From Bacteroidota bacterium (GTDB lineage Bacteria > Bacteroidota > Bacteroidia > Palsa-965): 64,000 nucleotides of DNA. Under the pieces are notes generated by a model, which did not search any database, had not been told where the DNA came from, and saw only the letters and a list, made by a program, of their open reading frames with translations. The stretch covers positions 124,001 through 188,000 of the forward strand of contig JACQAM010000008.1 of NCBI GenBank assembly GCA_016194975.1, written 5' to 3'. Shown piece by piece: positions 1,922 through 4,187 of the stretch. Made by a program: the position numbers and the translations under genes. Numbering within the stretch: position 1 is the first letter of the stretch; the number at the start of each line of letters is the position of its first letter.

Positions 1922-3277
1922 CTATTTAGTTAGCGTTCCCATTGATTTATCGTATTCCACTTTTGCAATGACGGCATCGTAAAGTGCATTGAAATAATTT
2001 GTTTGTGCTTCTTTCAGAGAAGTCTGTGCATTGATCACTTCAAGATCGGAGCCAACACCTTGGTCGAATTTTTTCTTTGTCACATCAAAAACTTCCTGCG
2101 CGAGATCCATATTTGATTTCTGCGAAGAAAGTGATGCGGACGAATTCTGCAGGTTCACTCTCGCAACCGCCTGTTGCATATCGATGATGCGTTCCATCTG
2201 CACCAAATCATTCTGCGATTTCATGATGCCTACTTTTGCTTGCGATATGCGATAGTAACGCTGCATGCCGGAAAAAATAGGAATGCTCACCTGCACGCCA
2301 ACAATTCCTATCGGGTACCAGGGTTTTCCCGGTTCGAAAATATTGAACGAAGTGCGTTGTGCCTGCGCGGTTGCAGAACCGAACAATAGTACAGAAGGAA
2401 GATAGCCCATACGTTCGGCGCGCAGGGAAAGAACTTTTCCGCGCAGTGTCATATCCATCAACTGGTAATCAATACGATTGGAATAATTGAATTTTCCATT
2501 TTCAATTTTTGGTGCATCGAAAGTGATATCGGAAATATTCTGTGAAGGAATAAGATCAGCCGACTGGTCCATTCCCATCTGGTATTTGAGAAGAACGAGA
2601 GAAAGATCGAGCAATCGTTTCACATTATCAGCTTCGGTAGTAAGATTATTGAAAGTGACAGTAACGCGATCGAGATCTATTTTTTCAACGAATCCATTGT
2701 CAAAATATGCTTTGGTGTCGTCGCGGAGTTTTTTGATCCTGTCAAGATTTGCGTCAAGTAGTTTTTTCTTTTCCATATTTACCAGCACGGTGTAATACGC
2801 TTTGGTCACATCAGCACGAACGTCGATGGAAGTGCGGTCTGCATTTTTCGCAGCAAGATCCTGATACAATTTCGACGCCTGTAGTCCCACAATGTATGCC
2901 CCGTTGAATAAAAGTTGCGTTCCGGAAAAAGAAAGTGAAGCATTGTACTGCGTTCCGAATTTCACGGGAATGTAACTTCCGGGAGGCCCGCCGAAAAATT
3001 CTCCGGGAATAAGAGACGTAGGGATCTGAACATAATCCTGCGCCTGGAAAGAAGAATTGATCTGCGGCAATCCCATTCCTAAAACTTCTTTCACTTTATC
3101 TGCAGCGGCTTGTTCGTCGAGCAGAACATTCTGCATGGTGGTGCTGTGCTGCAAAGCATAATCTATGCACTGCTGCAGCGTGTAGTTGTAAGAAGCAGTG
3201 TCGGTTTGCTGTGCGTCGAGAGAAAGAGTCGCTGCGAAAATGGAGAGGAGCAGCAGTTTCGTTTTGATTGTTTTCAT
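1922..3277 (-). CDS. TolC-family outer membrane efflux channel
   Basis: Outer membrane factor of the tripartite pump, 451 residues, typical length. Signal peptide MKTIKTKLLLLSIFAATLSLDAQ, then two outer-membrane efflux protein repeats: the first opens with YTLQQCIDYALQHSTTMQNV, the second half holds the helices around ISQAKVGIMKSQNDLVQMER and ends with the typical YFNALYDAVIAKVEYDKSMG. It would form a trimeric beta-barrel plus alpha-helical tunnel. It sits between tetR and the adaptor gene in one operon, with repeat-rich spacers on both sides. Confidence 0.94.
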   Translation of the reverse strand: MKTIKTKLLLLSIFAATLSLDAQQTDTASYNYTLQQCIDYALQHSTTMQNVLLDEQAAADKVKEVLGMGLPQINSSFQAQDYVQIPTSLIPGEFFGGPPGSYIPVKFGTQYNASLSFSGTQLLFNGAYIVGLQASKLYQDLAAKNADRTSIDVRADVTKAYYTVLVNMEKKKLLDANLDRIKKLRDDTKAYFDNGFVEKIDLDRVTVTFNNLTTEADNVKRLLDLSLVLLKYQMGMDQSADLIPSQNISDITFDAPKIENGKFNYSNRIDYQLMDMTLRGKVLSLRAERMGYLPSVLLFGSATAQAQRTSFNIFEPGKPWYPIGIVGVQVSIPIFSGMQRYYRISQAKVGIMKSQNDLVQMERIIDMQQAVARVNLQNSSASLSSQKSNMDLAQEVFDVTKKKFDQGVGSDLEVINAQTSLKEAQTNYFNALYDAVIAKVEYDKSMGTLTK

Positions 3278-3362
3278 AATTGCAGTTTATGATTTTTCAT
3301 CTTGCGACCCAATAGAGTCGTTTGAGGGCGAATTTTATTTTATGAATGAGAAGATATTTGTG

Positions 3363-3509
3363 GGGAACGAATTGCGAACGCCCGCTCCAGCGGGTGCGAA
3401 AATGCGAAGTGCGAACTTGCGTAAGCACGAAAGCCAAAATTCGAAATTCGAACTTTCACACTTGGCATTTTCGCAGTCAGTTCTGCTGACATTTCCGCAT
3501 TCCGTTCCC
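3363..3509. repeat. Long imperfect inverted repeat with nested hairpins between tetR and tolC
   Basis: The ends are perfect complements (GGGAACG at 3363-3369, CGTTCCC at 3503-3509). The arms share TGCGAAAATGC and AAGTG words. Each arm holds its own small GC hairpin at the matching place: CCCGC/GCGGG around TCCA (3381-3394) in the left arm and GTCAG/CTGAC (3476-3490) in the right arm, with unrelated sequences. The right end touches the tetR stop codon directly. Words resemble those at 19269-19375 and 49247-49319. Confidence 0.75.
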
Positions 3510-4148
3510 TTATTCATCTTCCACTGTCTGTTTATATTTATTGATCAGTTTATGTCCTTTGAGCGTACACACGCCATAAAGAAAATGTTCCGTCATAGAG
3601 ATCTGTGTATCGAGCAGTTTGAATTTGTCTGGTGGAAAGATCGTTGGATCGAACCCCATGTCTATTTCTTCTATGCGGAGTTTGGCGAGGATTTTCACGT
3701 TCACATCTGTTCTCACGAATCCTTGTTTCTTTCCGTTCTCCAGTGATTTCATGATCATGCCATAAACAAAATCATTTCTGAATTTGTGGAACAGGTTCCA
3801 TGTTTTCGAATGGTATTTTCGCAGGTCGTAAAAAATATTCGGATTGATGCTGCCGAAGATCTCGTGCATCTTTTTCATGATCACAAAAATTTCCTCCACC
3901 ACATTCGAAGTTTCCTTCGCGATCTTTTCAAAATCCTTGTGATCCTGCGCGAGCGCGCGTTCCATGAGCGTATGCACGACCTCGTCCTTGTCGCTGAAAA
4001 ACTGGTAAATGGTTTTCTTCGAAATGGTCAGATGTTTCGCGATGTCGTCCATCGTGATCGTCTTTATTCCATAGCGGAAAAAAAGTTCGAAAGCCGCGTT
4101 GAGAATGCGCTCTTTCGGTTTCATTTCCTTTGTGCTGTGCATTTCCAT
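3510..4148 (-). CDS. TetR/AcrR-family transcriptional regulator
   Basis: Likely ligand-responsive repressor of the efflux operon that it heads, 212 residues. N-terminal three-helix DNA-binding domain (about 14-60): KERILNAAFELFFRYGIKTI, then the helix-turn-helix TMDDIAKHLTISKKTIYQFF and SDKDEVV. The rest is a helical ligand/dimer domain without a recognisable subfamily. I take the ATG at 4148 rather than a TTG at 4160, because a strong promoter (-7 box at 4158-4165) leaves room only for a start at 4148 or 4142. Divergent from asnS. Ligand unknown. Confidence 0.92.
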   Translation of the reverse strand: MEMHSTKEMKPKERILNAAFELFFRYGIKTITMDDIAKHLTISKKTIYQFFSDKDEVVHTLMERALAQDHKDFEKIAKETSNVVEEIFVIMKKMHEIFGSINPNIFYDLRKYHSKTWNLFHKFRNDFVYGMIMKSLENGKKQGFVRTDVNVKILAKLRIEEIDMGFDPTIFPPDKFKLLDTQISMTEHFLYGVCTLKGHKLINKYKQTVEDE

Positions 4149-4157
4149 TCCGAGCCG

Positions 4158-4187
4158 CAAAACTATGGAAACATTTTATGAATACAA
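4158..4187 (-). promoter_or_regulatory. Bacteroidota-type promoter of the tetR-efflux operon
   Basis: On the minus strand TTG, 19 bases, then TAGTTTTG: an exact match to the Bacteroidota -33 TTG / -7 TAnnTTTG consensus with normal spacing. The predicted RNA would start only a few bases before the tetR ATG. Confidence 0.65.

Follow-up and report, generated by a model that had tools for sequence, protein, structure and literature searches.

The inverted repeat that directly follows a tetR gene in the 64,000-nucleotide stretch of DNA we analyzed (the window) is one of many dispersed copies of a repeat, and reading it as one conserved RNA at a single locus is wrong or unsupported. On balance, we favor the interpretation that it is a doublet of a short, non-autonomous, lineage-specific intergenic repeat, which we call U and which resembles REPIN/BIME elements, with an exchangeable hairpin in a fixed slot. 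Under this interpretation, the element would have been inserted immediately after the tetR stop codon, its hairpins would be replaced at the DNA level, and it would act, if at all, through mRNA structure at the 3' end of the gene.

The element is an inverted pair of units behind tetR

An earlier note on this DNA had described an inverted repeat with two different hairpins at matching places in its arms, and we found its coordinates and sequence to be as described (Table 1). The element opens with GGGAACGAATTGCGAA (GGGAACG from 3363) and closes with the reverse complement of GGGAACGGAATGCGGA (CGTTCCC up to 3509), and its inner arms of 21 nt (3395-3415 and 3455-3475) are 90% complementary. The hairpins occupy matching positions because the element consists of two inverted copies of one unit with a hairpin slot. 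The predicted fold is a four-way junction composed of an outer stem, hairpin 1, an inner stem, and hairpin 2, and the claim that it exceeds chance was borne out, with z values of about -6 to -8 against shuffled sequences, none of which was as stable. On the plus strand, the RNA fold reached -72.2 kcal/mol compared to -46.2 +/- 4.3 for the shuffles (z = -6.0). On the minus strand, from which tetR is transcribed, the values were -70.5 for RNA (z = -7.8) and -41.7 for DNA (z = -7.2), with 0 shuffles equally stable for either.

Table 1. Parts of the element and neighboring genes, in window coordinates
Feature	Position	Strand	Evidence
Whole element, inverted pair of units U, 147 bp	3363..3509		Sequence, folds, dispersed family
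Left unit outer frame GGGAACGAATTGCGAA (terminal inverted repeat)	3363..3378	+	21 exact genome copies of GGGAACGAANTGCGAA; reversed control 0
Left slot hairpin CCCGC-TCCA-GCGGG, H4 type	3381..3394	+	Slot alignment and covariation
Left unit core GCGAAAATGCGAAGTGCGAA	3396..3415	+	Exact core
Palindrome center, degenerate CGAA words, weakly paired	3416..3454		Folds; no left-right co-variation
Right unit core, GCGAAAATGCCAAGTGTGAA on minus strand	3455..3474	-	2 mismatches to core
Right slot hairpin GTCAG-CAGAA-CTGAC (minus strand), H1 type	3476..3490	-	Slot inventory
Right unit outer frame GGGAACGGAATGCGGA	3494..3509	-	Sequence; genome outer-frame matches
TetR-family regulator gene	3510..4160	-	Pfam TetR_N E 4e-12; orthologues in relatives
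TolC-type outer membrane efflux gene, downstream of tetR	1922..3277	-	Pfam OEP E 3e-42

The tetR gene has a called start at a TTG (4160), with relatives aligning from about residue 9-12, and its TAA end at 3510 adjoins the element. The earlier note had the element touching the stop codon, and indeed it begins at the very next base: the TAA (minus strand, 3512-3510) is followed, with a gap of 0, by GGGAACG / GGGAACGG. No Bacteroidetes -7 motif (TANNTTTG) lies between tetR and the efflux gene, one such motif lies just upstream of tetR, and no intrinsic terminator (GC hairpin plus T run) occurs in 3240-3560. Since the spacer contains neither a -7 motif nor a terminator, the element is probably transcribed within the tetR-efflux message.

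The tetR-efflux spacer measures 231 bp here. Of the seven relatives compared, six have an orthologous spacer of 14-64 bp that lacks the element, so this is not one conserved RNA locus. The seventh relative (G007; L124 / G007:C61) has a 235-bp spacer containing other hairpins and degenerate AACGAATAC words, which suggests that this spacer may simply tolerate inserts.

Unit U is dispersed within a single genome

Unit U has the form GGGAACGAA(T/G)TGCGAA, followed by 2 or 3 nt, a hairpin, a T, and GCGAAAATGCGAAGTGCGAA, or in short GGGAACGAATTGCGAA-[hairpin]-T-GCGAAAATGCGAAGTGCGAA; the window element is two inverted U. We examined the bacterium's own genome (4.1 Mb, 28 contigs; probably of the Bacteroidia, judging by gene content and repeat families) as 0.79 Mb of stretches combined with genome-wide pattern searches. 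A blast search with a 161-base query gave 55 matches at about 30 places. The core GCGAAAATGCGAAGTGCGAA was present at 32 sites with up to 3 mismatches, and the outer frame had 94 matches with up to 2 mismatches, some of which probably belong to related word families; both reversed patterns gave 0. Listing stable 180-nt windows across the genome proved too unspecific to be of use.

The dispersed copies have in common a fixed frame of about 60 bp. Seven are full palindromes (the window element, C16:73593, C9:106715, C8:88810, C7:344370, C8:237170, and C4:232764), 120-163 bp long, with 16-bp terminal inverted repeats and GGGAACGAATTGCGAA or a close variant at both ends. U also occurs as single units and as 59-bp tandem arrays, in which TAGG takes the place of the hairpin. 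All 29 placed copies were intergenic according to a simple gene caller, and they adjoin unrelated genes in all orientations. Stop-facing edges, counted for the full palindromes and a derivative at C9:107360, lie 0-12 nt from a stop codon in 10 of 10 cases. A SAM riboswitch (E 3e-15; L015 1727-1899, C8:236926-237098) is situated about 70 bp from the palindrome at C8:237170, and an inverted repeat of GTGGTGTC lies near the riboswitch at L015 2860-2933.

Outside this genome, U had no match in 38 relatives, six of them of the same genus, and the 11 other genomes of the order yielded one chance match, in coding DNA, and none that was real. Three matches from a pattern scan of GTDB contigs were discarded as unrelated Sphingomonas and spirochaete sequence without the palindrome. 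Phage records contained no match to the element, and an Rfam scan of it returned sub-threshold chance matches only. U is a small family of non-coding repeats, known to date from the genome of this bacterium alone.

Slot hairpins keep their palindromy while their sequence turns over

A hairpin, or the remains of one, occupies 19 U slots, one T before GCGAAAA and, in copies other than those with the H3 type, 2-3 nt after GCGAA. Four types recur, namely H1 (GTCAGnnnAACTGAC), H2 (CGnCGGTGAAAnACCGnCG), H3 (CCCGAACnnGTTCGGG, with a variable loop), and H4 (CCCGC..GCGGG), and the rest are unique. The H1 stem of the right window slot is found again in the copies at C9:106733 and C9:107439; the H2 copies include a double change from A-T to G-C and one copy with a mismatch. 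The slot hairpin is exchangeable: most copies carry unrelated stems and a few have one in common, so that position and palindromy persist while sequence turns over. Five slots in our core inventory had no hairpin, and these, together with the TAGG-bearing tandem units, indicate that the hairpin is not essential.

We assessed slot covariation in 12 non-H3 units, using a structure-free alignment and the five outer pairs. In these units, 83% of cells were paired compared to 52% with shuffled partners, and 18 cells were altered on both sides compared to 6.9. The covariation score was 0.718 versus 0.214 for shuffled partners, and all slid registers remained at or below 0.28. The two H1 rows, which have a longer 5' spacer (3 nt instead of 2), were out of register, and the slot count is therefore conservative. 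In hand-aligned stems, 62 of 65 outer pairs were Watson-Crick compared to 27.5 +/- 4.9 with shuffled partners, although hairpin boundaries were set by eye and we use this figure as supporting only.

The long arms gave a different result. If pairing of the long palindrome were under selection, arms of the same copy should be more alike than arms of different copies. With seven copies, which makes for a weak test, left-right identity in the core was 0.836 within and 0.808 between copies (P = 0.08), and in a 34-nt stretch, subject to the same limit of seven copies, it was 0.676 within and 0.687 between (P = 0.73). By this test, we found no co-evolution of the arms. The simplest reading of the arm sequences is that their complementarity reflects shared descent, the arms matching because both are U. 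The proposal that structure is kept while sequence is not therefore stands for the hairpin slot and fails for the long arms.

For G-T pairs in an RNA, we took rates of 10% and 5% as alternative expectations. In the slot stems, about 1 of 63 paired cells was G-T, a scarcity with P = 0.01 if 10% is expected and 0.17 if 5% is. The near absence of G-T pairs leans, weakly, toward a DNA-level palindrome over selection for RNA pairing, a faint hint that slot palindromes are made or kept at the DNA level. Hairpins would then be replaced as whole palindromes, by apex insertion or template-switch repair, and stepwise RNA compensation would not be the route.

One hairpin is common to three repeat families

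The H3 hairpin CCCGAACnnGTTCGGG occurs at 22 sites in this genome and was absent from the five same-genus genomes searched. It is located in U slots, in the middle of the arrays of family C (TACGAAATACGAAAT-H3-ATTTCGTATTTCGTA), and as the apical hairpin of Flavo-1-type elements, and so is common to three repeat families. One such Flavo-1-type element, at C14:79097, had an E value of 1e-4 in the genome search, under the gathering score. Among slot hairpins, H3 alone occurs in other families. We considered H1 and H2 as independent repeats and rejected both: each of the 3 exact genome matches to H1 belongs to a U copy or to the C9 derivative, and the best matches to H2 (0-2 mismatches) occupy U slots save for one two-mismatch site. 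A further word family, TACGAAATACGAAAAGTTTACTAAAAGTTACGAAATACGAAA, in which a central CCCGAA..TTCGGG hairpin is present or absent, was seen at L160, L166, L171, C16:121483, and C8:115235.

Flavo-1 (RF01705) has 11 matches in this genome (e.g., C5:76403 and C8:309941) and 75 in G001, a sister species of the same genus. In the G001 copies (L209-L226), the frame is fixed and the hairpin variable, as in the nested CCTCCCAAC[CCCAACAGAATTGTTGGG]GTTGGGAG. The sequence CCCAACAnnnnTGTTGGG has 99 occurrences in G001, both inside Flavo-1 and outside it. With a fixed frame around an apical palindrome that differs between copies and is nested in some, Flavo-1 resembles a dispersed repeat more than it does an RNA gene.

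A hairpin that moved between element families, or was inserted at palindrome apices, would fit the H3 and Flavo-1 observations. A broader proposal, which we regard as possible but doubtful, is that short hairpins (palindromes of 14-20 bp) are mobile cassettes in this bacterial group. U, family C, and Flavo-1, dispersed elements that are otherwise unrelated, would each offer a fixed slot at which such cassettes are inserted or exchanged, with a favored hairpin in each species, such that structure is inherited and sequence is swapped at the DNA level.

Comparison with known systems

REPINs and BIMEs (PMC3116915, PMC3733652) resemble U in that they are short, extragenic, and arranged as inverted doublets, singlets, and tandem clusters; they also have a long hairpin, compensatory changes, and a tendency to lie close to stop codons. 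In REPs, however, the short palindrome is conserved, whereas in U it is variable and sits within a conserved frame. The GTAG/CGTC tag is absent in U, in which the bases before the hairpin vary, and we found no U copies flanking a RAYT gene. U works like a REPIN, but it is not filed as one because these three defining REP features fail. A RAYT was rejected as its mobilizer, and no mobilizing enzyme for U was found among the one RAYT (C16:187431) and both IS200-like genes, all of which are flanked by other palindromic hairpins. This REP-associated tyrosine transposase (L138) is flanked by GTGTCGGGTGTTATCACGCGTGATG repeats, which constitute a separate REP family. U might spread in trans by means of some enzyme, or via recombination.

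The Flavo-1 RNA motif (PMC2864571) is likewise multi-copy in Bacteroidetes intergenic regions, with a variable hairpin in a fixed frame, and in this genome it has the CCCGAACnnGTTCGGG hairpin in common with U. The frame sequences differ, however, and U pairs head to head. In Flavobacterium psychrophilum, Flavo-1 occurs both in sense and in antisense orientation (PMC9723704). We rejected U as a Flavo-1 RNA, as the Flavo-1 covariance model matched neither the window element nor any other palindrome that we tested. What we describe looks like a variation on known bacterial palindromic repeats, lineage-specific and REPIN-like, with an exchangeable hairpin slot, and not like a one-off RNA switch.

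Alternative explanations

It is also conceivable that the element serves the tetR-efflux operon as a structured RNA, either cis-regulatory or a small RNA, with its four-way junction maintained by selection on RNA structure. The high stability of the fold on the transcribed strand (z = -7.8), the location between tetR and an efflux gene, two genes that are probably co-transcribed, and the covarying slot hairpins all speak for such an RNA. Yet the presence of U beside unrelated genes in all orientations, the orthologous spacers that lack it, the missing Rfam match, the long arms without co-variation, and the near absence of G-U pairs together make this account very unlikely. We consider it quite unlikely that U is a MITE, that is, a DNA transposon remnant whose terminal inverted repeats serve a cut-and-paste transposase and in which hairpins have no role. 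MITEs are small, non-coding, and dispersed, and the 16-bp terminal inverted repeats, the length of 120-163 bp, the several intergenic copies, and a spacer longer than that of relatives would suit one. But many U copies consist of one unit or of tandem units and do not form a bounded palindrome, and the precise hairpin slot is foreign to MITEs. No constant target-site duplication was apparent when the flanks of the full palindromes were read by eye, with TA on both sides of C16:73593 only. Our inventory of unit ends revealed no autonomous partner or parent transposon, and the sole close pair of units seen with a reading frame between them (C9:106715-107490) encloses only an 85-aa frame. The genome does contain two near-identical long MITE-like palindromes (TGTTTAAAATTCATTTTTTGGAATTG...), unrelated to U, at about L053 5640-5820 and L056 10020-10200 (C8:25.6 kb and 90.0 kb).

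A neutral origin, in which arrays of CGAA words grew via slippage and unequal exchange, and intrastrand template switching perfected the palindromes, would leave U neither mobile nor functional. This would account for the same words appearing in tandem arrays, relatives carry 8-9 bp word arrays of other sequence, and perfect Watson-Crick hairpins are compatible with template-switch correction. Nonetheless, the fixed frame common to the dispersed copies (about 60 bp), the exactness with which the slot is positioned, and flush placement at stop codons are hard to reconcile with such a process, and we hold it to be unlikely.

Possible effects and implications

If U is the REPIN-like repeat that we favor, its effect on expression may parallel that of REPs. 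In Escherichia coli, ribosomes stall at REPs located no more than 15 nt from a stop codon, which reduces translation (PMC12306157), and REPs have been proposed as mRNA stabilizers (PMC3733652). Analogy with these REPs suggests that the window element may reduce TetR output or shape the mRNA of the operon. In the tetR-efflux transcript, a four-way-junction RNA beginning at the base after the stop codon would lower or insulate expression, with stalled terminating ribosomes or blocked 3' decay, as for the E. coli REPs, as candidate routes.

Covariation in repeat alignments is normally taken as proof of a functional RNA. If whole palindromes are exchanged at the DNA level, however, a covariation signal would arise without selection on RNA, and this may apply to Flavo-1, which is cataloged as an RNA whose function is unknown. 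In the U family, hairpin turnover can be observed among paralogues.
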